A DNA stretch of 64,000 bases from an uncultured Spirochaetaceae bacterium (GTDB lineage: Bacteria; Spirochaetota; Spirochaetia; Sphaerochaetales; Sphaerochaetaceae). Each line of letters opens with the position of its first letter. The first letter of the stretch is position 1. The position numbers and the translations under genes are program-made. Below, in pieces: positions 22,921 to 60,161 of the stretch. The DNA is taken from NCBI GenBank assembly GCA_944392965.1, contig CALXYM010000001.1:310001-374000 (forward strand). The letters run 5' to 3'. The notes beneath the pieces were generated by a model. The model saw only the letters and a list, made by a program, of their open reading frames with translations. It had not been told where the DNA came from and did not search any database.

Positions 22921-23007
22921 TAAATTCTTAAAAACGTGATAGTTTGACACTTTGAAAATTCTAAAAACGTGATAAAATGATTAGTGTAAATTCTTAAAAA
23001 CGTGAGA
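22921..23007 (+). repeat. three phased direct repeats upstream of a DUF4143 ATPase gene
   Basis: AAATTCTTAAAAACGTGA occurs three times (22922-, 22956- with one T missing, and 22988-). The CG dinucleotides are at 22935, 22968 and 23001, exactly 33 bases apart. The last copy ends 9 bases before the ATG at 23016. They are probably binding sites for a regulator of the ATPase gene, possibly its own product. Confidence 0.75.
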
Positions 23008-23015
23008 CAGGTATC

Positions 23016-24368
23016 ATGAGAAGAAAGATTACAGAAGAATTACTTAAGTGGAAACAAGAAGATCAGGGGTGTACGGCCCTTCTTGTGGAAGGAGCCCGCC
23101 GCGTAGGTAAGAGCTATATCGTGGAAGAGTTTGGTAAAGAGTACTACAAAAGCTGCATACTCATCGATTTCATGGCGGCAGGCCCCCAGATTAGGCAGCT
23201 TTTTGAAGATTATCTTGACGACCTTGATTCCTTTTTCTCACGTCTTTCCCTCATCTTCCGTACTGAGTTGATTGAACGTGATACGCTCATCATTTTCGAT
23301 GAGGTCCAGATGTATCCAAGGGCAAGAGCTGCAATAAAATACCTGGTTAAGGACGGTCGTTATGATTACATTGAAACAGGTTCGCTGCTCTCAATCAGAA
23401 AAAACATCCAAGGTATTGTAATCCCTTCCGAAGAAAAGCACATAAGGCTTAATCCTATGGACTTTGAGGAGTATCTCTGGGCCCGCAACGATAATGTTAC
23501 GATGAACATCATCCGGTCATGTTTTGAAAAAAGAAAACCTCTCGGGCAGATCGCACACAGGGAGATAATGAAAAGATTCAGGGAATACCTTCTTATAGGA
23601 GGGATGCCTCAGGTAGTCGAGACTTTCAACAGAACCAATGATTTTCTCAAGGCAGAAGAAACCAAGAGAATGATCATCGATCTTTATCGCGATGATATCG
23701 CTAAATATGCAGAAGGGTATCAGGAGAAGGTTATGGCAATCTTTGATGAGATTCCTTTTTCACTTTCAAGGCATGAAATCTCTTTCAAGCTTTCCTCTAT
23801 CAGTGATAAGGCTCGTATGAGGGAATATGAGAAGGCGTTTTTCTGGCTGAATGATTCCAGAATCTGTAATATGTGTTATCTCAGTACGGATCCGAATATA
23901 GGCTTGAATATGAATGCTGAACGTTTAAGGTTCAAGCCCTATGTGGCTGATACCGGCCTGCTGGTGAGCATGATATTCGATGAAAACGGACTGGCTGACC
24001 GACAGATTTATGAAAAGATACTATCGGATAAACTTGAAGTGAATCTGGGCATTGTCATTGAGAATGTCGTAGCGCAGATGCTGACTGCGTCAGGACGCAG
24101 ACTGTTCTATTATTCCTCATATGATACTGCAGACAAAGAAAACCGTATGGAGATAGATTTCCTTATAAGAAAAAGGAATGTAACCAGCCGTCATAATATC
24201 GTCCCTGTTGAGGTCAAATCAACAACGCATTACAAAACTATATCGCTGAAGAAGTTTACCAGAAAGTTTCAGAGCTATTCTGCAGAGCCGATTATCATAC
24301 ATGCTGGAGACTACATGGTCAGAGACGGGATTGAATGTTTCCCTGTCTATATGACACAGCTTGTATGA
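23016..24368 (+). CDS. AAA ATPase with DUF4143 domain
   Basis: 450 residues. An N-terminal AAA_14 domain has Walker A EGARRVGKS (residues about 26-34) and Walker B LIIFDEVQMYP around residue 96, both intact. A linker helix region precedes the DUF4143 part, which ends in a nuclease-like core with DFLIRKRN and VPVEVKS (residues about 385-412), reminiscent of the PD-(D/E)XK motif. The family is common in gut bacteria and archaea; its role is unknown, with defence or mobile-element functions suspected. It is closely similar to the 55827-57185 product. The gene stands alone between two guaA-end repeats, and its promoter region carries three phased repeats. Confidence 0.88.
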   Translation: MRRKITEELLKWKQEDQGCTALLVEGARRVGKSYIVEEFGKEYYKSCILIDFMAAGPQIRQLFEDYLDDLDSFFSRLSLIFRTELIERDTLIIFDEVQMYPRARAAIKYLVKDGRYDYIETGSLLSIRKNIQGIVIPSEEKHIRLNPMDFEEYLWARNDNVTMNIIRSCFEKRKPLGQIAHREIMKRFREYLLIGGMPQVVETFNRTNDFLKAEETKRMIIDLYRDDIAKYAEGYQEKVMAIFDEIPFSLSRHEISFKLSSISDKARMREYEKAFFWLNDSRICNMCYLSTDPNIGLNMNAERLRFKPYVADTGLLVSMIFDENGLADRQIYEKILSDKLEVNLGIVIENVVAQMLTASGRRLFYYSSYDTADKENRMEIDFLIRKRNVTSRHNIVPVEVKSTTHYKTISLKKFTRKFQSYSAEPIIIHAGDYMVRDGIECFPVYMTQLV

Positions 24369-26027: not shown

Positions 26028-26151
26028 AATTAGCCAGATTTTCCCCATGAAGGTCCCGCCTGTTGTCTCGGCAATGCCATTTGGACTACCGCATTCTTTT
26101 GGAAGGATAGCATTGAAGAATCTTTTGTTCTATGTCATGATTTACTCAACG

Positions 26152-26184
26152 TATTGAGATAATTATCTCAATATCCTGAGATAA
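26152..26184. promoter_or_regulatory. perfect palindrome plus half-site before an ATPase gene
   Basis: TATTGAGATAA at 26152-26162 is exactly mirrored by TTATCTCAATA at 26163-26173, with no spacer. A third related half-site CTGAGATAA lies at 26176-26184, 15 bases before the ATG at 26200. This looks like an autoregulatory operator. Confidence 0.6.
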
Positions 26185-26199
26185 ATACAAGGAGAATAT

Positions 26200-27399
26200 A
26201 TGGAGAGAAGCAGGTACACGGAGATTCTCAGAAGTCGGCTCAGAGAGAAGAGGAGATTCATACAGGTTATTGCCGGTCCGAGACAGGTTGGAAAAAGCAC
26301 GATTATCGCCGACGTCCTATCGACAGTGGCTATTCCATATGTCTCTGAAAGTGCCGATGACATCACTGTTTCGGGAGATTCATGGTTGAAGGGCATATGG
26401 GACAGGGCAAGAATCCTTGCAAAGCAGCACGGTAAAGCGTTGGTCGTGATCGATAAGATACAGAAGATCTCTAACTGGAGCGAAGCCGTGAAAAAGTTAT
26501 GGGATGAAGACAAGAATACAGGAGCGAATGTGAAGGCAGTCCTGTCAGGCTCATCCCGGCTCCTTTTGATGAAGGGGCTCTCCGAATCTCTTCAGGGACG
26601 GTTTGAACTGATTCCTGTTCCCCATTGGTCTTATGGAGAGATGAAGGAGGTGTTTGGTTTCTCACTTGATGAATTCATATACTTCGGATCATATCCAGGA
26701 CCTGCCGACCTCATAGGAGACGTGCAGCGCTGGAAGGCATATATACGTGATTCAATCATGGAGCCGAGTCTGACAAAGGATATCCTCATGCTCACGCCCA
26801 TCCAGAAACCGGCACTGCTGAGACAGCTTATGGAGCTCGGTTCATACTATTCTGGGCAAATCATGCCATTTGAACACATGCTGGGACAGCTGTCTGATGC
26901 AGGGAACACGACAACGCTGGCATATTACCTCGAACTGCTCCGGCAGAGTGGTCTCCTTGCAGGACTACAGAAATATTCGGGTAGCGAGGTCCGCAAGCGT
27001 GCCTCCAGTCCGAAACTACAGGTCTTTAACAATGCATTGCTTTCATCGAGGCACCCGATGGATTTCGCTAAGGCTAAGGATGATGACACGTTCTGGGGCC
27101 GCCTTGTGGAATCTGCTGTAGGAATGCATCTCCTCAATTCGGTGGCGGGGGAGGATGTCAATCTTGGCTACTGGAGGGAGAAGCAGAATGAGGTGGATTT
27201 CGTCTTGTACAATGAATATTCTACAGTCGCATTTGAGGTGAAAAGCGGAGGTCGGACATATGGGAGGGGCATGGATGCTTTTCTGAAGAGATACCCGGGG
27301 AGCAAGGTGTTTTCCGTATCAGCAAAGGCTGATGCTGGTTCGATGACAATCCCTCTGGAGGAGTTCCTGCTCAGGAATCCTCTGAGCTATCTCAGATGA
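26200..27399 (+). CDS. AAA ATPase with DUF4143 domain, altered Walker B
   Basis: 399 residues. Walker A is intact (AGPRQVGKST, residues 25-34). The Walker B position reads VVIDKIQKI (residues 82-90): the usual Asp-Glu is Asp-Lys because codon 86 at 26455-26457 is AAG. The C-terminal DUF4143 part carries EVDFVLYNEYSTVAFEVKSG (residues about 330-349), a complete PD-(D/E)XK-like E...D...ExK core. It belongs to a different branch from the 23016 and 55827 ATPases (different motifs around the P-loop). Either the family tolerates the change or this copy has lost ATP hydrolysis. ACAAGGAG precedes the ATG. Confidence 0.85.
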   Translation: MERSRYTEILRSRLREKRRFIQVIAGPRQVGKSTIIADVLSTVAIPYVSESADDITVSGDSWLKGIWDRARILAKQHGKALVVIDKIQKISNWSEAVKKLWDEDKNTGANVKAVLSGSSRLLLMKGLSESLQGRFELIPVPHWSYGEMKEVFGFSLDEFIYFGSYPGPADLIGDVQRWKAYIRDSIMEPSLTKDILMLTPIQKPALLRQLMELGSYYSGQIMPFEHMLGQLSDAGNTTTLAYYLELLRQSGLLAGLQKYSGSEVRKRASSPKLQVFNNALLSSRHPMDFAKAKDDDTFWGRLVESAVGMHLLNSVAGEDVNLGYWREKQNEVDFVLYNEYSTVAFEVKSGGRTYGRGMDAFLKRYPGSKVFSVSAKADAGSMTIPLEEFLLRNPLSYLR

Positions 27400-50258: not shown

Positions 50259-51632
50259 TTAAAAATACAGCATCTCTCCTGTGATAAACTCATCAGTATC
50301 CGGTAGAGTAAAGGCAAAACCTGATGAAGAGACAAAACCAATTGATGCCACATCAATGTATTTCGCATTTTCCATCTTTATTTTTTCTTCCTTATATAGA
50401 TTGAATGACATCGGACTTACTAAATACTTCACTTCATAAAGGCTGTAATTTCCATTTCTTTTGATAGCACAGTCAAATTCACCACTTTTTTTCGATATAG
50501 GGTCGTCATACCAATAACTACCGATTGTCTCAATCGTAATATCGCCAATGCGTTCGAAATATTCACGTACTAGGACTTCAAATCGCTTTGAAATCCAAGT
50601 ATTGATGGATGGGTTGATCAAGCGATCATAAAGAACATCAGGATTCAATCTTGTAGGAATTGTCCTCATCTGATAGATATATGTGAAATAGAAACGAAGG
50701 AGATTATCCTTAATTTCATAGAAGGTCTTGCGTTTGTCATCCCTTCTATTGATAGGAGTGACTTTTTCTATGATTCCCATATCGATAAGACGTTTCAGTA
50801 TCCTGTCTAAAGTCCCTGTGACATCTCCAGCCATAAGATCCTGAAGTTCCTTGTATCTGATCTTTGAATTACCGATTTTAGATAGTACTTCATAAGGCAT
50901 TCCCGTTTTGCCGACCTCCTGAAGTAGGACGTTCTCAACTGTGATCCTAATATTACTATATGGGGCTAATAGGAGATTTTTGATATTTTCTTCCAAACTC
51001 AGAGCCGCATCCACTCTGTCTAGTATGAATGGATAGCCACCAAAGACAGCATAAAATGCTATTTTATCCCTTATTGATAAATTAGGATAGAAAAGAGCGG
51101 AATCCAAATAATCAAATGTAGTAAGTTTGACGACTGTTTTCAATCTGCTGAATAAGGGATTTCCATATTCCAGAAGTTCTTGCATTACCGTAATATAGGA
51201 GCCGCAGAGTACAAGGGTGATATTTCCCTTAATAGAGTCTATGAATCTCTGCATGTACGAATCTATTACACCTTTTTCTTTGGTTTCTCTTAGATATTGG
51301 TATTCATCAAGCACTACAACGATAGGTTTGTTTATTCCTGAAGTTTCCATGATTGTTAAAAGTTCGAAGATGTCGCGTGAGTTTTTTGCGTAGCTAATGT
51401 TTGCTATGTTTGATACCGTTAATGCAAGCAACTCCATATTGTAGGCATAGCTACCTTTTACGCATTCATGCTTAACAAGGATAAAATCATCAGAGGAGAA
51501 GGCTTCGTCTATAAGAGTGGTCTTGCCAACCTGTCGCTGACCGTAGACCATGATGCCTTTAACTTTATCCCTAACACTTTTTCTTAGAATTTCTACTTCT
51601 TTTTGCCTGCCAATGAATTGTTTCATGTACAC
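50259..51632 (-). CDS. AAA ATPase with DUF234-type nuclease-like domain
   Basis: 457 residues. Walker A is YGQRQVGKTT (residues about 29-38) and Walker B VVVLDEYQYL near residue 107, both intact. A winged-helix section follows (SKIGNSKIRYKELQDLMAGD), and the C-terminal DUF234 part has SGEFDCAIKRNGNYSLYEVK, a PD-(D/E)XK-like D...ExK core. This is the archaeal-ATPase/DUF234 branch rather than the DUF4143 branch. No operator-like repeats were found upstream. Function unknown; such ATPases accumulate in accessory regions. Confidence 0.85.
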   Translation of the reverse strand: MYMKQFIGRQKEVEILRKSVRDKVKGIMVYGQRQVGKTTLIDEAFSSDDFILVKHECVKGSYAYNMELLALTVSNIANISYAKNSRDIFELLTIMETSGINKPIVVVLDEYQYLRETKEKGVIDSYMQRFIDSIKGNITLVLCGSYITVMQELLEYGNPLFSRLKTVVKLTTFDYLDSALFYPNLSIRDKIAFYAVFGGYPFILDRVDAALSLEENIKNLLLAPYSNIRITVENVLLQEVGKTGMPYEVLSKIGNSKIRYKELQDLMAGDVTGTLDRILKRLIDMGIIEKVTPINRRDDKRKTFYEIKDNLLRFYFTYIYQMRTIPTRLNPDVLYDRLINPSINTWISKRFEVLVREYFERIGDITIETIGSYWYDDPISKKSGEFDCAIKRNGNYSLYEVKYLVSPMSFNLYKEEKIKMENAKYIDVASIGFVSSSGFAFTLPDTDEFITGEMLYF

Positions 51633-51854
51633 ATTTTATCATGATGAGGTAAAAAAGCAATCACCTGAGATTGAATCACTTCTGATTGTTAATATTGAGC
51701 CTAGTTTTTCACTCCAAGAAGAATCATCAATATTTTTCTATTTCTGGATGCAATGTTTTAACAGATATTCTATCTCGGCCATACAGTAATTTCTCCTGCC
51801 CGTTGTCTTTCCCTCATATTCCCATAGGTCGGGATTGAAAGACACTATGAATGA

Positions 51855-52643
51855 TCATTGTCTGTCGACAAGGACCTGTATTTCATAGTACCAATTCAAT
51901 ATACCTGAGATGATGATAATCTGTACGGTGAAGCTGGGATCTGTACCATATTCTGTTTTCGCCATGCTTATCAGTTTATCCATCGTTTTTTCCCTGTCTT
52001 CTTCAGTACAGTTTGCACATAGATACTTTCCTTTTGGTAATACTTTTATCCCATCTATATCCACATGCCGAATGCAGAGCGCAAAGAGCCTCGTAATCTT
52101 GTCATCCGTATAAATGCCAGCCAGGTCTTCAAAATAAAACTTGTCTTTCAGCTGGGGCGTCACTTTCTCATAGAAATGTTCAAGATAGTTCCAGAGGTTG
52201 TCGAGTGTCGGTTTCTCCAGAGTGTCAGAGAGCAGGATCACCCGTTTTGGAAGGTTTTTAAGAAGAGTTCCTTGAACATTTTGCTGTAACTTAAGTTTCC
52301 TTTCATAGTCAGCTTTCGCAAGGTTTATCTTTTCCTTGCTGTATTGCAATGTGGCAATCTTCTCATCCGCTTTTTTCTCCGTCTGGGTCAAGAAGTCAAT
52401 TATTTTCTCTAAGTTGTCATAGGCCAGGACTTTTTTTATCTCTTTAAGGGATAGATCCATCATCTGCAAGGCTCGTACGGTATTCAGACGCACGATGTCC
52501 TGCTCTGTATAGTATCGGTAATTTGTCCACTCATCCTTCTTACTTGGTTTTACCAATCCGATACGATCATAATGTCGTAACGTCTCACTCGTGGTATGGA
52601 CGATTTTTGCAGCTTCTCCAACTGAAAAAATTTTTTTTGTCAT
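51855..52643 (-). CDS. MerR family regulator with GyrI-like domain
   Basis: 262 residues from the ATG at 52643; an upstream ATG in frame (52676) would overlap the divergent promoter. The MerR helix-turn-helix is FSVGEAAKIVHTTSETLRHYDRIGLV and is followed by the coiled-coil (residues 75-125) and a C-terminal effector domain that resembles GyrI-like multidrug-binding domains (KVLPKGKYLCANCTEED). It is divergent from the ABC cassette at 52735, whose promoter has the 19-base spacer and dyad typical of MerR control. Confidence 0.88.
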   Translation of the reverse strand: MTKKIFSVGEAAKIVHTTSETLRHYDRIGLVKPSKKDEWTNYRYYTEQDIVRLNTVRALQMMDLSLKEIKKVLAYDNLEKIIDFLTQTEKKADEKIATLQYSKEKINLAKADYERKLKLQQNVQGTLLKNLPKRVILLSDTLEKPTLDNLWNYLEHFYEKVTPQLKDKFYFEDLAGIYTDDKITRLFALCIRHVDIDGIKVLPKGKYLCANCTEEDREKTMDKLISMAKTEYGTDPSFTVQIIIISGILNWYYEIQVLVDRQ

Positions 52644-52656
52644 TTTTTCTTTCCTA

Positions 52657-52687
52657 TTGACATTTGTGTTACACAAAGGTTCATCCT
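52657..52687 (+). promoter_or_regulatory. MerR-type promoter with dyad in a 19-base spacer
   Basis: TTGACA at 52657-52662 is followed by a 19-base spacer and CATCCT at 52682-52687. TTTGTGT (52663-52669) and ACACAAA (52671-52677) form a 7-base-arm dyad inside the spacer. This elongated layout is the hallmark of MerR-activated promoters. Confidence 0.7.
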
Positions 52688-52734
52688 AGCACTGTAAATT
52701 GGAAAAAGCAATTATGTATGGGAGGAATATCCAT

Positions 52735-53583
52735 ATGATAGAACTTAAACAAGTGACGAAACGGTACGGGGATGCGACCGTACTGAAGAATTTAAACCTT
52801 TCAATCGACGAGGCTGGAATCTACTGTCTTCTTGGTCGGAACGGGGCTGGGAAGACGACCCTCCTTAAGTCGATTGCGGGGTACCAGAACATTACAAGCG
52901 GTACCATCAAGGTGGATGGTAAGGAGGTTTCAACAGCTTTGCTGGATACTGGAGTCAGTTACATAGAGAACTTTGCAAAGCATTTCAATCTTCCTGTTCG
53001 GAAACTTCTGCAGATAGCCTCAAAAGTAAATCCTGACTACGATTATGATTTCGCCTTGGAGATGATGGAACGATTTGAGCTGGATGGAAAGAAGAAATTC
53101 AATCATCTCAGTCTCGGTATGAAGACGATGATTTCAACGATTATTTGTCTTTCAAGTAATAAGAGCGTGATTCTCCTGGATGAGCCAGTTCTTGGCTTTG
53201 ATGCTCTAATGAGGGTGGAGTTTTATGACATGCTCTCAGAGAGCTTCAAGAGACATCCGAGGATCATCATCGTCTCAACGCATATCATTGAGGAGATTGC
53301 AAAGGCCATACAGAAACTGATAATCATCGATAAAGGTACCCTCTGCTTCTTTGATACCCTTCAAGCTGTGGAGGAGAAGGCATACAGCGTCAGTGGCCTT
53401 AAAAATGATGTTGAAATTGCAGTTCGGAATCTGAACGTCATCGGAGAGGATTGTGTAGGCGTCCTCATGACAGCTTACATCTTCGATAAGCCGCTGGCGG
53501 AGTCCTCATTAGAAATCCATCCGCTCTCTCTGCAGGATTTCTTTATTCAGCTGGTAGGTCATAAGGGAGGGGTAAGAAAATGA
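52735..53583 (+). CDS. ABC ATPase of an export-type cassette
   Basis: 282 residues from the ATG at 52735 with GGGAGGA upstream; the frame is open from a TTG at 52699. Walker A is GRNGAGKTT, the signature is LSLGMKTMIS (Ser-Gly-Gly replaced by Ser-Leu-Gly) and Walker B ILLDEPVLGFD, with THIIEEIAK at the switch. This is a drug/bacteriocin exporter-type ATPase (YtrB/CcmA-like). Its last codon overlaps the permease start by 4 bases (ATGA). MerR control suggests a response to an antimicrobial. Confidence 0.9.
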   Translation: MIELKQVTKRYGDATVLKNLNLSIDEAGIYCLLGRNGAGKTTLLKSIAGYQNITSGTIKVDGKEVSTALLDTGVSYIENFAKHFNLPVRKLLQIASKVNPDYDYDFALEMMERFELDGKKKFNHLSLGMKTMISTIICLSSNKSVILLDEPVLGFDALMRVEFYDMLSESFKRHPRIIIVSTHIIEEIAKAIQKLIIIDKGTLCFFDTLQAVEEKAYSVSGLKNDVEIAVRNLNVIGEDCVGVLMTAYIFDKPLAESSLEIHPLSLQDFFIQLVGHKGGVRK

Positions 53584-54232
53584 CATCTGTTTTTGCAATC
53601 GTGAAGCGTTTGATTTCCAGTAACAAGATAAGTTTTATTATTACGTTAGCCGTACCGTAGTTCTCCTAGCAACGTCTTCTGGTAATGTTGTTTTGAGCAA
53701 CGGGAACTATACCTGGCTGCTTGCCGTGTTAACTCCATTCTTCTTCGTGTTCTATGATTTCATGAAGCTGATGCATCTCGGAGCGAATAAGAAGGATTAT
53801 TATATCGCATGTCTAATCAGTTACATGGCACTTGCATTTGTAATCTCCCTTGTAAACACGGGAATACATCTGGTGATAGATCCCATATATTCTGCTGAGA
53901 CTGTCATCAACATGATGGATGTGTGCAGGTGGACTGAGAACGGGATTTTCGTTGCCGCTCTGCAGCAGATGTTCTTCCTGTTTCTTGTCATGATTTTCCT
54001 CCATGTCCTCTTATCGATGCAGGCATACTGGTATGGATGGCTGACTGATGTGATATTGATTGCAATCATCTGCATTTTCACCCCAATAACGCCTTTAAGA
54101 GCGGTCCTTTCCGTTTTTTTCAGCCTCATCATGATAAATGGCAATGCCCTGTTACATATTGCCATCTGTGTTCTCCTTTCTGCCGCATTGTCCCTTTTTG
54201 GACTGATGGTATTAAAGAGGAAGACGCTATAG
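53580..54232 (+). pseudogene. ABC-2-like membrane protein, frameshifted
   Basis: The ATG at 53580 overlaps the ATPase stop and opens a frame that ends at TAG 53658-53660 after 26 codons. The rest of the protein is in another frame from 53657 to 54232. CCGTA occurs twice in tandem at 53650-53659; removing one copy restores a single 215-residue protein with about six membrane helices (SFIITLAV then VVLLATSSGNVV). The shift could be a true recent mutation, a phase-variable change or an assembly error. As written, the exporter has no intact permease. Confidence 0.75.
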
Positions 54233-54242
54233 GGAGATCATT

Positions 54243-54671
54243 ATGATAAAGATAAAGGCGGTTGATACTGAGAATATACTTGACGTGTGCGGATTGACGG
54301 CAGGGCATGAGTTCTGTCCGACGCAGTCTCCGTGTTCTGTCTGTACCGCGCTCTCCATAGCCAGATCTAAATTTAACCCGGATATGTACGTCAATGCCAT
54401 CTATGAGGGTAATACGGTGATTGGTTACTTCATGTATGAGCGAAGAGAGGAGATGGCGGAGACGGCGACGATCTACAGCTTCATGCTTGGTGGAAAAACG
54501 AGGCATAAGGAACAGGAGGAAAAAGCGTTTGAGCATATCTTACGAGGGCTTAAATTCCAAGGTGTCAGGAAGGTCTTTCTTGCTCTGAGTGAGGCGGATG
54601 AGACAGCTAGGGACTTATATCGTGCTTTCGGTTTTCATATCTCCGAAGAGGGATATGTATTAACACTATAA
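54243..54671 (+). CDS. GNAT family N-acetyltransferase
   Basis: 142 residues. The acetyl-CoA-binding part is recognisable as IYSFMLGGKTRHKEQEEKAFEH, where the usual Q/RxxGxG/A pattern is degenerate, followed by VRKVFLALSEADETARDLYRAFGF, the typical C-terminal strand-helix with the conserved Tyr-x-x-x-Gly-Phe. Residues 1-40 include a run of three Cys (CPTQSPCSVC). It is 10 bases after the permease frame and so part of the same cassette. The acetyl acceptor is unknown; an antibiotic or peptide would suit the context. Confidence 0.8.
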   Translation: MIKIKAVDTENILDVCGLTAGHEFCPTQSPCSVCTALSIARSKFNPDMYVNAIYEGNTVIGYFMYERREEMAETATIYSFMLGGKTRHKEQEEKAFEHILRGLKFQGVRKVFLALSEADETARDLYRAFGFHISEEGYVLTL

Positions 54672-54698
54672 ATTAAATCTATTTAAGAGGAAGAGAAA

Positions 54699-55355
54699 AT
54701 GAAAAAGAGATTTTTACTTATAACATGTTTGATGTGCATCTGCTTTTTAGCAGGATGTGCCAACAACGATACGTTTACTCCGATGTCGTTTGTAGAGGAG
54801 GGCTCTAAGGTGGAGTCAATCAATATCGATGTCACGGACAGAAAGGTTGATGTATCCCTCTCATCTGACGATCAGGTGCATATCGATTACTTTGAAAGCG
54901 ATAAGGAGTTCTATGGCATTTCCCTCTCTGACGGGGTACTGACGATGAAGAGTGAAAGTAATAAGAACTGGATGGATTTCATCGGTATGAAACCATCAGC
55001 TGCATACAGGGTGATATCCATACAGGTACCTGAGGATCTTTTGAAGAATCTCTCGATAAAGAACTCGAATGAGAATGTAACGGTCAACGAATTATCCGTA
55101 ACAGGGAATATAATTATCGATTCTAACAACGGCAATATTGCATTCTCCAACTTAGAAGTAGGAGATTCTTTAACTCTCAAAGTTAAGAATGGAAATATCA
55201 ATGGATCTATATTAGGTACTTACATGGATTTTACCATTGCAAGTAACATCAAAAAAGGTAATTGCAATATAGATGATTTTTATCCAATGCCAAATGGTGA
55301 AAAAAAGCTGAATGTATCTGCAAATAATGGGAATGTGGAGATCGAATTCATCTAG
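54699..55355 (+). CDS. DUF4097-like lipoprotein
   Basis: 218 residues with a genuine lipobox (CICFLAGC; lipid Cys at residue 20), unlike the AGG-type signal peptides of the binding proteins. The mature protein is a repetitive beta-strand series (VESINIDVTDRKVDVSLSSD, VNELSVTGNIIIDSNNGNIA, VKNGNINGSI, VSANNGNVEIEFI), the beta-helix-like pattern of DUF4097 proteins. It is presumably anchored to a membrane and is the last gene of the MerR cassette. Function unknown. Confidence 0.82.
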   Translation: MKKRFLLITCLMCICFLAGCANNDTFTPMSFVEEGSKVESINIDVTDRKVDVSLSSDDQVHIDYFESDKEFYGISLSDGVLTMKSESNKNWMDFIGMKPSAAYRVISIQVPEDLLKNLSIKNSNENVTVNELSVTGNIIIDSNNGNIAFSNLEVGDSLTLKVKNGNINGSILGTYMDFTIASNIKKGNCNIDDFYPMPNGEKKLNVSANNGNVEIEFI

Positions 55356-55415
55356 TAATTATAGTTTCCCTGTGGTGGTAAATAATTGCCACCACATATT
55401 AGAGTGAAGATAAAT

Positions 55416-55444
55416 TTCTGCTAATTTATGTAAAATTAGCAGAA
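55416..55444. repeat. perfect 12-base-arm inverted repeat
   Basis: TTCTGCTAATTT at 55416-55427 pairs exactly with AAATTAGCAGAA at 55433-55444 over five bases. It lies between convergent genes without a T-run. It resembles an operator more than a terminator. Confidence 0.65.
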
Positions 55445-55463
55445 GTTAGTAAAAGATTTATTA

Positions 55464-55782
55464 TCAGAGATGTTTTGCTTTGAATCCTGATTTTCTCTCA
55501 TTGATTTTAAATTCTGTTAAGTATCCCAAATCTACAAGATGTCTTAAGTCCGTTCTTGCAGTCTGGGTACAGATACCATTCATGGATCGGTATTCTTCTA
55601 CGGTCAGATATGAGGTCTCGAGTGAGGAAAGCTGGGCAAGCAGGCGGGCTTGACGTTCATTTACTTCGCTCAACTCCAGCCCTTTTAAGGTCATCTTCTG
55701 TCAGTGGAGGGATAAGTGATGAGAGTTCCCCATCATTGATAAGGCCTTCTTTAAATGATTTCATAAATGCATTGACGTCCAT
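55464..55782 (-). pseudogene. winged-helix protein, frameshifted
   Basis: An ATG at 55782 opens a frame reading MDVNAFMKSFKEGLINDGEL to DDLK; the 76-residue frame that ends at 55464 continues the sense with GLELSEVNERQARLLAQL and a helix-turn-helix (MNGICTQTARTDLRHLVDLG). Joining them needs removal of one A from the AAAA run near 55690. Together they make a protein of about 105 residues that resembles the C-terminal winged helix of Fic-type or ATPase-associated proteins. Whether it is an old remnant or a recent single-base slip cannot be told. Confidence 0.55.
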
Positions 55783-55826
55783 ATTTAACTCCACCTCTGT
55801 AAAGGGTGAAAATTTTAACAAAGGTA

Positions 55827-57185
55827 TCAAATGAGGAATGCCATATAACAGGGGAGGAAGATTATACCATCCTCTTCTTTGTAGTTCTTAGGATGGATTA
55901 TATATGCCCCTCCAATACGTCTAGAGTATTTTTCTTTGAATCTTAATAGAGATTTTAAAGAATACTTTTCAGAGGATTTGACCTCAATCGGAAATATCTT
56001 ATTTTTTGTTTTCCCGCCTTTTGATATGATGAAATCGATCTCAATGTCATTGTGCTTTGACTGTTCGTCGTAATGCGTATAAAAGAACAGCCGGTGTCCA
56101 TTTGTTTTCAATGTTTGAGCAATGGCGTTTTCAAAAAACATCCCTTCGTTTATTGAAAGTTTTCCAAGAAATAATTCCCTATATAACTCTGCTGCAATCT
56201 CTTCATTTTCATCAAAGGTATGGCTTAAGAGAAGTCCCGTATCTCCCATATAGCATTTTACGTATGTTCTATCCTCATTCAGTGACAATCCTACTTCTGG
56301 ATCTGATGTGTTGAATGCGATATTGGTAATCATGGAATCTTCCAGCCAGAAAAAGGTCTCCTCATATTTTTCAAACGTAGATTGTTTCTCTATTTTACTA
56401 AAAACCACTCTTTTCTCGTGTCGGCTTAGTAAGGAGGGTATCTGGTCAAATATCGTAAGAACTTTAGCTTTATATTTCCCGTCGATTTTCATGATATCGG
56501 AACGGTAAAGTTTCAGTATTAGCTGTTTTTCAAAATCCGCATCTTTAAAATTCTTGATATCTTTACTTATGTATGCTTCAACGCTTTTAGGCATTCCTCC
56601 GACTATCATATATTCTCTAAAGAGACTAAGAGCCTTCCGATGTAAATCCGTCGTTAAAGGTTTATGTCCGTTAAAACATTCTTTTATGTATTCGATTAGT
56701 TTTTCTTCTCCTAAAGCCCAGCTGAATTCCTCAAAATCCATCGGATACATTTTTATGCTTTCTTCTTCTGATGGTATTAAAATATCTTTCACGTTTTCTT
56801 TTATGGAAATCAGGGAGCCAGTCTCGATGTAGTCAAAACGTCCATCTTTTACAAGAGTTTTTATTGCCTCTCTAGCTTTTGGGTAAAGCTGTACTTCATC
56901 GAAAATTATAAGACTTTCTCGTTCAAACAAATCAGTATCGTAGGCTATTGAGAGAATCTGAAAGAACGATCCTAAAGAAGAAAGATTATTTATGAAGGCC
57001 TCTTTCACCATATTGGGGCATTCTGCAAAATTTATCAGTATGAAGGATCTGTATTCTCTTCTTCCAAATTCCTCAACAATTGTCGATTTTCCGACTCTTC
57101 TTGCTCCCTCTATCAGTAAGGCGGTGCGTCCATTACGCTCTTTCCATGTCAATAGTTTACTATAAATCTTTCTTTCAAATAGCAT
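55827..57185 (-). CDS. AAA ATPase with DUF4143 domain
   Basis: 452 residues, clearly a paralogue of the 23016 product along its full length. Walker A EGARRVGKS and Walker B LIIFDEVQLYPKAREAIK are intact, and the C-terminal core reads IEIDFIISKGGKTKNKIFPI followed by EVKSSEKY. Three direct repeats with 34-base periodicity lie upstream (57211-57292), as with the paralogue although the repeat sequence is different. It lies downstream of the PLD-helicase gene on the same strand with 114 bases between them. Confidence 0.88.
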   Translation of the reverse strand: MLFERKIYSKLLTWKERNGRTALLIEGARRVGKSTIVEEFGRREYRSFILINFAECPNMVKEAFINNLSSLGSFFQILSIAYDTDLFERESLIIFDEVQLYPKAREAIKTLVKDGRFDYIETGSLISIKENVKDILIPSEEESIKMYPMDFEEFSWALGEEKLIEYIKECFNGHKPLTTDLHRKALSLFREYMIVGGMPKSVEAYISKDIKNFKDADFEKQLILKLYRSDIMKIDGKYKAKVLTIFDQIPSLLSRHEKRVVFSKIEKQSTFEKYEETFFWLEDSMITNIAFNTSDPEVGLSLNEDRTYVKCYMGDTGLLLSHTFDENEEIAAELYRELFLGKLSINEGMFFENAIAQTLKTNGHRLFFYTHYDEQSKHNDIEIDFIISKGGKTKNKIFPIEVKSSEKYSLKSLLRFKEKYSRRIGGAYIIHPKNYKEEDGIIFLPCYMAFLI

Positions 57186-57210
57186 GTCTCTATATTAAAA
57201 GAAAATATCA

Positions 57211-57292
57211 TAGTACGCAAGTAAAAATACCATATTTTTATCGATAATACGCAAGTATGAAAAATTGAAAAACATATATAATACGCAAGTAT
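57211..57292 (-). repeat. three phased direct repeats upstream of a DUF4143 ATPase gene
   Basis: ATAATACGCAAGTAT is found at 57244-57258 and 57278-57292 and in the variant form TAGTACGCAAGTA at 57211-57223. The CG pairs are at 57216, 57250 and 57284, exactly 34 bases apart. The nearest copy is 26 bases from the ATPase start at 57185. Confidence 0.78.
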
Positions 57293-57299
57293 AGAAGTG

Positions 57300-60161
57300 T
57301 TACGATGTAATATAATCGAATATATCTCGCCGTACCGGTGTTAAGATATGATAATGTATTTCAAATGCATCCTTGCCATTTATCTTTACTTCTCTTGCTT
57401 CTCCCACAGCTTCGATCTCCCCTAGAAAATAGAACTCTTTCCTGTCGTCTTTTGAGTTCTTTCTCAGAAAGAGGTATATCTTATTGTTCTTATCTTCTTC
57501 TGTTGTTTTATAAATATGCATATAATCTGAGGAGCCGATTCTCCTTGGCATCTTTGAATATGCTGTAATATTGGAATTGTCAGGAAATTTATTCGGGTAT
57601 TGTATCGCTTTTCCTGCTTTCTCATAATTTATGAATACGGGAAGAGTCTTGGTTTTCTTATCATAAAAATACCCTCCGATGCCGTTTGCATTCATATTCC
57701 TGTCCCAGAGAAGAATACGGCATACATCCTCATAGGTGTATTTCTCATATAGGACAAGCTGTGTATCATCATACCTGACGCTGTATTTCTCCCTGTTCCT
57801 TATAAGCCCATCACTTACTATATCATTCAGGATAGATCTGAAATCGGGATTAGAAAGCATCTTCTGCAATCTTTCAGAAGGAAAGAGAGCATTGTTTTTT
57901 ATTTTTATTAGCGGAGTGGAACCGTATTTGACTGTCTCCTGCTGCTTGAGAAAGGTCATATCCAGATTCGCCACCATGGAGGAAAAACCTCTTCGCTTTA
58001 CAAACTCTTCCAGATCAAGACTTCTTTCTAACGCACCTTTCAGAAACAACAGTTCATCATCTCTTTTTCCGTTGGAAAACTTCTCTGATACATATCTTAT
58101 CACCTTTTCTTCATCTTCCGTGAAGCTGATTTTATATTCACTGTCCACCTTTCTTACGAATGCATGATAGGACCCTTCCTTATCCACGAAGTTCTGAATG
58201 TCCATTGCCTTCGCCTCTCGGAAATCCGCTATTGTTGGAATCCTTCCAAGGCGATTCTTTAATTGGAAATATTCGTTTTTAAGAATCGTGTACTGCTTTA
58301 AATCACTTGAATCAATGTTCCTGTAGATAAGCTCCTTTGCAACCGGATCGAAATCTATCGTGGATGATCCTGGGATGATAGAGGAACCTTCTGTAATGTA
58401 TTTGCGAAGGTTGTCCCTGTCATATGTGTTATCTCCTGAGAGTGCGATTGGAATCAGGAAGGATTTTCTGTAGTTCCCGATGAAATCGATCACGACAAGA
58501 AACTCCTTCTCATCATCATTCTTCCTCAGTCCTCTTCCAAGTTGTTGGACGAAAATGATTGATGACTCTGTGGGGCGAAGCATTATGATCTGGTTAACCT
58601 TAGGTATGTCGATCCCCTCATTGAAAGTATCGACCGTGAGGATGAAATCCAATGTTCTTTCATCATCCTCATTCATTTCCAAACGTCTGACATATTCCTC
58701 CCTTCTCTCTATCTTCGTCTCTCCCGTGACGTATTCTGTCTGCCAGTTCCTCTTTCCGTTTTTCCTCCTTTTGTTAAGTTCTTCTGAGAGGGCTTTCGCT
58801 TCTTCGATGCGTGAGCAGAATATGAGACCCTTTACCCTCCGTCCACTAAAACCATAGTATTCTGATTTCGCTATTATATTTCTTACACGTTCTTCTGATG
58901 TCAAATCTGAAAAAGAGGCATCTTCCCCAAGTATCTTTCCATCCACTTTTATCTCAGATACTCCGAAATAATGGAAAGGGCAGAGTAGGTTGTTTTCAAG
59001 AGCATCCTTTAGCCTTATATCTATAGCGATGTTGTAGTCGAAGATCTCATAGATGTTCTCACTGTCCGGGCGGTCCGGTGTCGCGGACATTCCTAGCAGG
59101 AACCTGGGAGTAAAATAACTCATTATAGTCCTGTAGGAGGGAGCTGCTGCCTTATGTACCTCATCGATTATCACATAGTCGAAGAAATCTTGTTGGAATT
59201 TACTGTACACTTCAGGTTTTGATATCGTTTGTACCGTAGAGAATATGTACTTCTTGTCATAATCCTTTCTTCCACCTGTTAGGAATCCTATATCGTTCCG
59301 TATTCCTTTTCCCAGCACGTCAATAAAGCTTTCTGCCGCGTCATTAAGAATCTGTTCCCTGTGTACGATGAAAAGCATATGCTCAGGATTGAATGAGAGG
59401 ACATCAAATGCTGATAGATACGTTTTCCCCGTTCCCGTAGCGGCGATGAGCAGGGCTTTCCTCTTCCCTTCCTTTCTGAGTGTTCTCAATGCCAGGGATG
59501 CTTCCCTCTGCATCTTGTTCGGTTCTATCCGGAAAGACTCTCTACTGGTTTCCCTTTCTATTTTCCGTCGTATTTCTGCCTCTCTATTATATCTTTTCTC
59601 ATATTCTGTAATCCAGATTTCCCTTACCGGTCTTGCCTCTTTCCAGAGCGCTTCAAACAGTTTTCTGAAATCTTTTGTCACTTTGCCCCCTTTTAAAGAG
59701 GTTATTTCAAGATTCCATTCCTTGTTTGTCTTCAGAGCTCCTCCTGTCAGGTTAGAGCTTCCTATTATCACGGTATCTGTAATGCTGGAGGAGAACAGGT
59801 AACCTTTTACATGGAAAGCCTCCTCTGTGATTATCCTCACGTCGATAAAGCCATAGCTGAGAAGTTTTCTTATCGCCTTCGGTTCTGTGTAGGCGAGGTA
59901 GTCGGTAGTTATTATCCGGCCTTTGACATTCCTTTTCTCCATATCCTTGAATGTCTGAAGAAGCATTTCGATACCGCTTAATCGTATGAATGAGACCGCG
60001 AAAAGGAATTCATCAGCCATCTCAAGACCTCTTTTCAGATGGGAAAGAACATCTCTCTGGTATTCATTTGAGTTGTCTATAATCACGGGTCTTGAGTCCT
60101 GAGGGTAGGGTATAGCATTATTTATAAGTATATCTTCCATTCCGCTTTCGAGCTCATTCAT
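57300..60161 (-). CDS. PLD-nuclease/DEAD-box helicase/DUF3427 protein
   Basis: 953 residues. N-terminal phospholipase-D-like domain with HVKGYLFSSSITDTVIIGSSN (His and Lys near residue 117; only one HKD half is clear). A superfamily 2 helicase follows: Walker A ATGTGKT at 241-247, DEVHKA near 333, SATPDRPD near 359 and QLGRGLRK in motif VI. The C-terminal 300 residues match the DUF3427 region. Proteins with this layout are widespread in accessory islands and are thought to act in anti-phage defence or DNA repair. It may be co-transcribed with the DUF4143 ATPase, although the repeats between them imply separate control. Confidence 0.9.
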   Translation of the reverse strand: MNELESGMEDILINNAIPYPQDSRPVIIDNSNEYQRDVLSHLKRGLEMADEFLFAVSFIRLSGIEMLLQTFKDMEKRNVKGRIITTDYLAYTEPKAIRKLLSYGFIDVRIITEEAFHVKGYLFSSSITDTVIIGSSNLTGGALKTNKEWNLEITSLKGGKVTKDFRKLFEALWKEARPVREIWITEYEKRYNREAEIRRKIERETSRESFRIEPNKMQREASLALRTLRKEGKRKALLIAATGTGKTYLSAFDVLSFNPEHMLFIVHREQILNDAAESFIDVLGKGIRNDIGFLTGGRKDYDKKYIFSTVQTISKPEVYSKFQQDFFDYVIIDEVHKAAAPSYRTIMSYFTPRFLLGMSATPDRPDSENIYEIFDYNIAIDIRLKDALENNLLCPFHYFGVSEIKVDGKILGEDASFSDLTSEERVRNIIAKSEYYGFSGRRVKGLIFCSRIEEAKALSEELNKRRKNGKRNWQTEYVTGETKIERREEYVRRLEMNEDDERTLDFILTVDTFNEGIDIPKVNQIIMLRPTESSIIFVQQLGRGLRKNDDEKEFLVVIDFIGNYRKSFLIPIALSGDNTYDRDNLRKYITEGSSIIPGSSTIDFDPVAKELIYRNIDSSDLKQYTILKNEYFQLKNRLGRIPTIADFREAKAMDIQNFVDKEGSYHAFVRKVDSEYKISFTEDEEKVIRYVSEKFSNGKRDDELLFLKGALERSLDLEEFVKRRGFSSMVANLDMTFLKQQETVKYGSTPLIKIKNNALFPSERLQKMLSNPDFRSILNDIVSDGLIRNREKYSVRYDDTQLVLYEKYTYEDVCRILLWDRNMNANGIGGYFYDKKTKTLPVFINYEKAGKAIQYPNKFPDNSNITAYSKMPRRIGSSDYMHIYKTTEEDKNNKIYLFLRKNSKDDRKEFYFLGEIEAVGEAREVKINGKDAFEIHYHILTPVRRDIFDYITS

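Follow-up and report, generated by a model that had tools for sequence, protein, structure and literature searches.

The question raised by this locus is whether three phased direct repeats, located immediately upstream of the gene for a candidate defence ATPase, form a DNA address private to the protein encoded by that gene, as had been suggested by analogy to addiction or incompatibility systems. The repeats were found in the window (the whole 64-kb stretch of DNA that was analyzed) at the following positions.

57278–57292, minus strand: distal repeat copy, exact ATAATACGCAAGTAT (gene strand ATACTTGCGTATTAT).
57244–57258, minus strand: middle repeat copy, exact ATAATACGCAAGTAT (gene strand ATACTTGCGTATTAT).
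57210–57224, minus strand: proximal repeat copy, ATAGTACGCAAGTAA, with 2 mismatches (gene strand TTACTTGCGTACTAT), 25 nt from the start codon.

The array consists of a 15-bp repeat in three copies at exact 34-bp spacing (34 and 34), positioned 25 to 107 bp 5' of the ATG of a gene with AAA_14 and DUF4143 domains. When read on the gene strand, the copies are WTACTTGCGTAYTAT, with two identical and the third carrying two changes. A triple repeat with a 34-base phase is thus real at this site, its predicted centres being displaced by one base. A search of the 64-kb window for the 15-mer with 0 to 2 mismatches returned these three positions only, and the 14-bp core TACTTGCGTAYTAT had three perfect matches in the 2.43-Mb genome, all at the focal array; matches with one mismatch numbered 4 genome-wide, comparable to the backward-pattern control (3). 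Near-exact repeats were confined to the upstream region of their own gene in each of three arrays examined (the focal array, that of the paralogue at 23016–24368, and C1:31210–31271). No Rfam match was detected across 54500–58500 at the gathering threshold. The stop codon of a type IV-like restriction helicase (57300–60161; PLDc, DUF3427) is 8 bp from the array, and the interval 50259–60161 is a defence neighbourhood that includes a PDC-S27-like ATPase (50259–51632), the PDC-S01 gene (55827–57185) and this helicase.

The protein encoded downstream of the array, P0001, is a full-length match to the PDC-S01 profile of PADLOC (E 4e-105), with AAA_14 and DUF4143 above cut-off in Pfam. PDC-S01 is reported to be the fourth most common (candidate) defence system in prokaryotes, an ATPase fused to PD-(D/E)XK that is classed as a candidate single-gene system pending validation (PMC12988326); a second source describes it as abundant in the rumen, there too as a candidate (PMC13356809). 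The gene and its domains were assigned as follows.

55827–57185, minus strand: PDC-S01 gene for P0001, 452 aa, AAA_14 plus DUF4143 (Pfam, PADLOC PDC-S01, AlphaFold).
56712–57185, minus strand: AAA+/STAND-like ATPase domain, residues 1–158, Walker A GARRVGKS (Pfam, conservation, structure comparison).
56337–56408, minus strand: winged-helix recognition region, residues 260–283 (helix 270–282), from the model; covaries with the 3' half of the repeat.
56043–56087, minus strand: PD-(D/E)XK hairpin, residues 367–381; covaries with the 5' half of the repeat.
55830–56150, minus strand: PD-(D/E)XK domain, residues 346–452, with E352, D384 and E401-x-K403 conserved.

In the AlphaFold2 model of P0001 (pLDDT 91.7, pTM 0.91), an AAA+ core (residues 1–158) is followed by helices (159–232), a winged helix with its recognition helix at 270–282, and a C-terminal domain from residue 346. 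For residues 1–323, structural similarity was found to archaeal AAA+ ATPases (2qen, Z 16.0, rmsd 4.3 over 266; 2fna, Z 14.8) as well as to STAND proteins, and the top Foldseek match was 2qby, an Orc1/Cdc6 structure on origin DNA; the order of AAA+ core and then winged helix in the model is that of the archaeal ATPase or Orc1/Cdc6 type. When folded alone, the C-terminal domain was similar to PD-(D/E)XK nucleases, with McrC as the best match (Z 8.8, rmsd 2.9 over 105) and many other restriction-type nucleases also aligned, and it carries both the core fold and the E/D/ExK residues. A Foldseek search with this domain returned nothing below E 0.001, a search of the PDB by sequence returned no chain, and NCBIfam gave no match.

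A second PDC-S01 gene and a third DUF4143 gene in the window were likewise preceded by repeats.

23016–24368, plus strand: paralogous PDC-S01 gene, 450 aa, 47% identical to P0001 (profile and sequence comparison).
22922–23005, plus strand: array belonging to the paralogue, with three AAATTCTTAAAAACGTGA-like copies at 22922, 22955 and 22988 (33/33 bp spacing).
26137–26187, plus strand: weaker repeat of 22-bp period (p 0.005), 5' of the third DUF4143 gene of the window (26200–27399).

The two PDC-S01 genes had been noted to share the copy number and to have a similar phase with a different sequence, and this was confirmed, with three copies at 33/33 compared to 34/34 and unrelated motifs. No further near-perfect copies of the paralogue's repeat were found in the genome, this repeat being almost confined to its own array. 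DUF4143 matches in this genome number 27, many of them with repeats of their own in the 260 bp upstream; 13 of the 23 testable genes scored for an array, at shifts of 22–23 or 32–33 with one exception. Five DUF4143 loci of the same genome (L010, which is C1:31210–31271, and L003, L011, L016 and L020) were observed to have array shifts of 22–23, 66 or 74 bp, near multiples of 11.

To score the occurrence of such arrays, the best shifted self-match within the upstream 150 bp was compared, gene by gene, with that of dinucleotide-shuffled sequences, with a cut-off of p ≤ 0.05. By this approach, an upstream array was detected in 101 of 110 homologues of the same bacterial family, compared to 1 of 32 other ORFs of the window (median self-match scores of 23 and 7, respectively), and chance is thus excluded. 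The best shift was 32, 33 or 34 in all but three of the homologues. Arrays, mostly of 33–34, were also found for 88 of 94 homologues from Bacteroidales, Clostridia, Actinobacteria, Fibrobacter, Kiritimatiellae, Lentisphaeria, a Methanomethylophilus archaeon and viral contigs; none was detected by this score in 9 of the 110 family homologues and 6 of the 94 from outside. Three near-perfect repeats (TGTGTTTAATATGGATAGAAATGGGAATTTAAGT) lie 5' of the homologue in Candidatus Methanomethylophilus sp. 1R26 (L224), and the arrangement therefore crosses domains. Many of the scored loci are from metagenome-assembled genomes, and all of the evidence is comparative. In 180 scored arrays the copy number was three (162 arrays) or four to five (18), never fewer than three, with the proximal copy ending a median of 32 nt and the array starting a median of 120 nt before the ATG. 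The period, noted as 34 at the focal array, is 32–34 rather than 34 as such, and 22–23 in some relatives; these periods are close to three and two helical turns, respectively, of about 11 bp, which would place the copies on one face of the helix. The scope was similarly narrowed from DUF4143 proteins at large: direct arrays mark the long (about 430–455 aa) PDC-S01 branch, whereas only 4 of 27 distant, shorter DUF4143 genes scored. In the related PDC-S27/DUF234 family, 7 of 23 genes scored, without the 33-bp mode.

Tandem repeats can arise by replication slippage, and the copies could in principle be functionless products of this process that were kept by common descent. This explanation carries negligible weight, as it is at odds with the conservation of the cores (0.6–0.77 per base between homologues, a value inflated by the choice of pairs with similar motifs) relative to the spacers (about 0.3, equal to background), with a period fixed at 32–34 among genes whose motifs are unrelated, and with the control ORFs, which are without such repeats.

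The pairing of DUF4143 proteins with their upstream repeats across genomes, which had been proposed as a check of the original prediction, revealed covariation. Among 112 proteins, motif similarity was found to rise with protein identity (Mantel r 0.265), and 0 of 2000 permutations reached this value (largest 0.093). Motifs were unrelated in pairs of less than 50% identity, similar in 39% of pairs at 55–60%, and similar in 80–90% of pairs above 70%. When other phyla were added (179 proteins), the correlation was 0.289 with permutations at most 0.088, and cross-phylum pairs followed the same curve of identity and motif as the remaining pairs. In 74 pairs within the same genome, motifs were mostly unrelated (9% similar); thus, it is the protein, rather than the host, that the motif tracks. 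Array sequences are unrelated between paralogues and conserved between orthologues even across phyla, so that the co-evolution proposed for self-specific repeats is statistically supported beyond the window.

The limits of the DNA that homologues share were also compared. For the focal gene and its 94% identical counterpart in another species (L036), the shared DNA is exactly 55827–57292, bounded by the stop codon and the outer edge of the distal repeat. Among 17 pairs of 81–96% identity, one limit of the shared DNA lay no more than 10 nt from the array edge in 12, and the other lay no more than 30 nt from the stop codon in every pair. Because the shared DNA is bounded in this manner, protein and array look like one inherited and transferred unit. 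Homologues of PDC-S01 were also found on viral contigs, plasmids and phage records, and upstream sequence was common to two Spirochaetales MAG loci (L148, L170) and loci of the window's family (L041, L063), which suggests that the host is probably a spirochaete. The same boundaries could be produced if the array were the end of a mobile cassette, bound by the AAA+/PD-(D/E)XK protein to mobilize itself like Tn7-type proteins. We regard this as quite improbable, since the array is one-sided (5' only), no repeat marks the other limit of the shared DNA, at the stop codon, neither a transposase nor terminal inverted repeats were found, and selection for a unit of protein plus operator predicts identical boundaries; the neighbour is also not syntenic in relatives.

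Several other elements were observed upstream of these and related genes. A Tn7-like transposon end, with arrays or inverted repeats at both ends and a DDE transposase, was considered as a class for the locus and rejected, the array being on the 5' side only. A recurring element, TGTCTACTTTTRTTGACAAGTACA, directly adjoins the 5' border of arrays whose motifs differ widely, at about −120 to −185 from the start codon (L054, L056, L061, L096, L112, L114, L143, L144, L240, L242, L245 and others); in some loci it is preceded by about 100 conserved bases, it looks like an insertion sequence end, and among 20 genomes of the genus it matched 6 times, in 4 cases beside such an array. At L243 (G069:C5), within about 100 bases after position 419, TTGCTTTTTCGTG occurs twice as an orphan array that no ATPase gene follows, either a decayed locus or a free-standing site. 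In the 100 bp upstream of PDC-S27/DUF234 genes (L258–L287), an apparently private inverted repeat was present just 5' of the start codon in 12 of 24, compared to 2 of 28 for PDC-S01 (for example, L269, TAGTCTAATTTAAATTAGACTA), the same idea as the arrays in palindromic form. Upstream of the distant, shorter DUF4143 genes (L289–L317, 100 bp), inverted repeats around a TTGAC-like −35 were found in 12 of 27 compared to 5 of 29 controls (for example, L296, CCGACTAATATGGAATTGTATTCCATATTAGTCGG).

The protein residues that vary with the repeat were located by corrected mutual information between motif positions and protein columns in 120 genes, genes of less than 40% identity being excluded. Motifs were set in one register (family consensus roughly AAAA-YYTG-W4-CGTG) and propagated along the similarity tree, a register that is uncertain for the most distant genes. 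The analysis was refined after a first look, in which partial correlations between sliding protein windows and the similarity of whole motifs had been weak and scattered; localized coupling appeared only once the motifs were aligned in register and split into halves. By this approach, the 5' half was found to couple best to residues 367–381, the nuclease-domain hairpin, and the 3' half to residues 260–284, the recognition helix and preceding turn (peaks of 1.25 and 1.18, respectively, compared to at most 0.88 for shuffled rows), with the ATPase domain at background level. Both windows recurred in two disjoint sets (the bacterial family alone and the other phyla alone). In 59 phylogenetically separate pairs with identity removed, which re-use genes of the mutual information analysis, residues 260–284 tracked the 3' half (r 0.30, p 0.02) but failed to track the 5' half (−0.23), and the converse held for residues 367–381 (r 0.30, p 0.017 for the 5' half; −0.23 for the 3' half); other windows (178–192, 338–352) were similarly strong in a scan of these pairs, which by itself does not single out the two regions. 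Kinship inflates mutual information, a concern that the localization, the disjoint-set replication and the independent pairs lessen but do not remove. At the level of a single residue, R272 went with GTG in the 3' half in 116 of 120 genes (66 with both, 50 with neither, 4 exceptions), a concordance that reflects about five changes on the tree and for which the independent pairs (3–5) gave an underpowered p of 0.25. Taken together, these couplings point to the winged-helix recognition region and the PD-(D/E)XK hairpin as the elements that read the array, and on the sequence comparisons as a whole the encoded protein very probably recognizes its own repeats rather than those of its paralogues.

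Direct-repeat operators of small defence-island repressors are known (RptR, PMC12255303), and the repeats might accordingly be bound by one or more separate transcription factors. This is a very unlikely explanation, as the motif tracks the ATPase and not the genome or phylum, the unrelated arrays of a single genome would each need a factor of their own that is always acquired together with the ATPase, and the covariation maps onto DNA-binding-like elements of the ATPase. A separate conserved regulator of protein and repeats, the alternative named in the original prediction, is argued against by the location of the covarying residues in the ATPase's own plausible DNA-reading elements.

The position of the array relative to the promoter bears on what such recognition would achieve. 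In 125 genes, −10-like hexamers began at offsets of 24 and 25 nt from the first base of the proximal core in 14% and 11%, respectively, compared to an average of 1.6%; given the usual 17-bp spacer, the −35 hexamer would fall within the proximal core, and the array thus overlies the −35 region. A candidate pair was identified at the focal gene.

57192–57220, minus strand: weak promoter-like pair found by eye, TTGCGT (57220–57215, inside the proximal repeat), 17 nt, TAATAT (57197–57192).

This pair matches 7 of 12 consensus bases, is 6 nt from the ATG and, if used, would give a leaderless or nearly leaderless mRNA; it is absent from the list of the promoter scanner, which has TTTTCA-16-TATTAT at 57271–57244 instead. 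From the location of the array at the gene's own promoter, its self-specific placement and its covariation with the protein, we infer that the three repeats probably serve as a self-specific, iterated autoregulatory operator bound by the encoded ATPase-nuclease, and repression of its own gene is the likely main role as judged from position; the array may instead serve in activation or have a function outside transcription.

Autoregulation is favoured over addiction or incompatibility because the array sits over the promoter. In the latter type of system the array would be an address of self or non-self, by which the ATPase-nuclease excludes incoming DNA with the same array (incompatibility, superinfection exclusion) or kills upon array loss (addiction). 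Private and co-evolving arrays, conserved nuclease residues, membership of a candidate defence family, homologues on mobile and viral records and the spread across phyla would all suit such an address. We nevertheless judge it improbable, since regulation alone explains why the array overlies the promoter and keeps a fixed phase relative to −10-like hexamers, and since the locus is a single-gene unit in which no toxin-antitoxin partner gene was seen.

If the array is an autoregulatory operator, the AAA+/winged-helix/PD-(D/E)XK protein would bind each copy just upstream of its own gene, with the recognition helix contacting the 3' half of the repeat and the PD-(D/E)XK hairpin the 5' half. Copies three helical turns apart would place protomers on one face of the DNA, where AAA+ oligomerization may allow side-by-side assembly, and the phased assembly would cover the −35 region, compete with RNA polymerase and repress the gene, with release of repression presumably during phage attack. 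Paralogues that share a cell, as do those of the 27 DUF4143 loci here, would each drift to a protein-operator pair of their own, which may then move between genomes and phyla as one unit. An extension of this scheme, which we offer as speculative, is that the protein is held as a repressed assembly on its array and that a disturbance, whether by phage or by incoming DNA that carries competing array copies, triggers the nuclease. It is equally tentative that the PD-(D/E)XK domain and winged helix would then act as a two-part, evolvable DNA reader, with the array as both operator and sensor or safety catch; if true, the protein-array pairs of the family would constitute a natural recognition code.

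As autoregulatory operators, the arrays would matter in several respects. PDC-S01 genes are among the most abundant candidate defence genes of prokaryotes, and a private, covarying DNA address provides a testable biochemical handle on them. Private addresses suggest how dozens of paralogues may coexist in one genome without cross-talk. Operators could be paired with ATPases from sequence alone, yielding many natural protein-site pairs for a recognition code.

In the searchable literature on PDC-S01 and DUF4143, which includes few subscription papers or preprints, upstream arrays or DNA recognition are not mentioned; the arrays are thus absent from the published descriptions found of a family of which P0001 is a full-length member. 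In Thermus thermophilus, one DUF4143 gene shows a 6.6-fold increase in cells that contain plasmid DNA and Argonaute (PMC4406477), a rise in keeping with conditional expression of this distant member; no direct repeats were seen by eye at Thermus TT_P0211 (DUF4143). RptR represses a phage-defence island through three direct repeats in the defence promoter but, unlike the protein proposed here, is a small regulatory protein in its own right whose TAGCTA site is conserved, neither the defence ATPase itself nor clade-specific (PMC12255303). McrB/McrC similarly combine an AAA+ ATPase with a PD-(D/E)XK nuclease; by contrast, they are encoded by two genes and target modified DNA. We know of no array for McrB/McrC. 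Archaeal Orc1/Cdc6 proteins, to which the top Foldseek match belongs, share the order of AAA+ and then winged helix and have binding sites beside their own gene, whereas the DUF4143 proteins add a PD-(D/E)XK domain and have sites private to each paralogue. Iteron-binding plasmid initiators (Rep) are winged-helix proteins that read phased direct repeats beside their own autoregulated rep gene in a pair-specific manner. The PDC-S01 genes differ in that they are chromosomal here and many per genome, with AAA+ plus nuclease in place of the two winged helices of Rep. The phased direct repeats beside the gene, with its own winged-helix product as the presumed reader, are nonetheless alike, a likeness of working rather than of membership.
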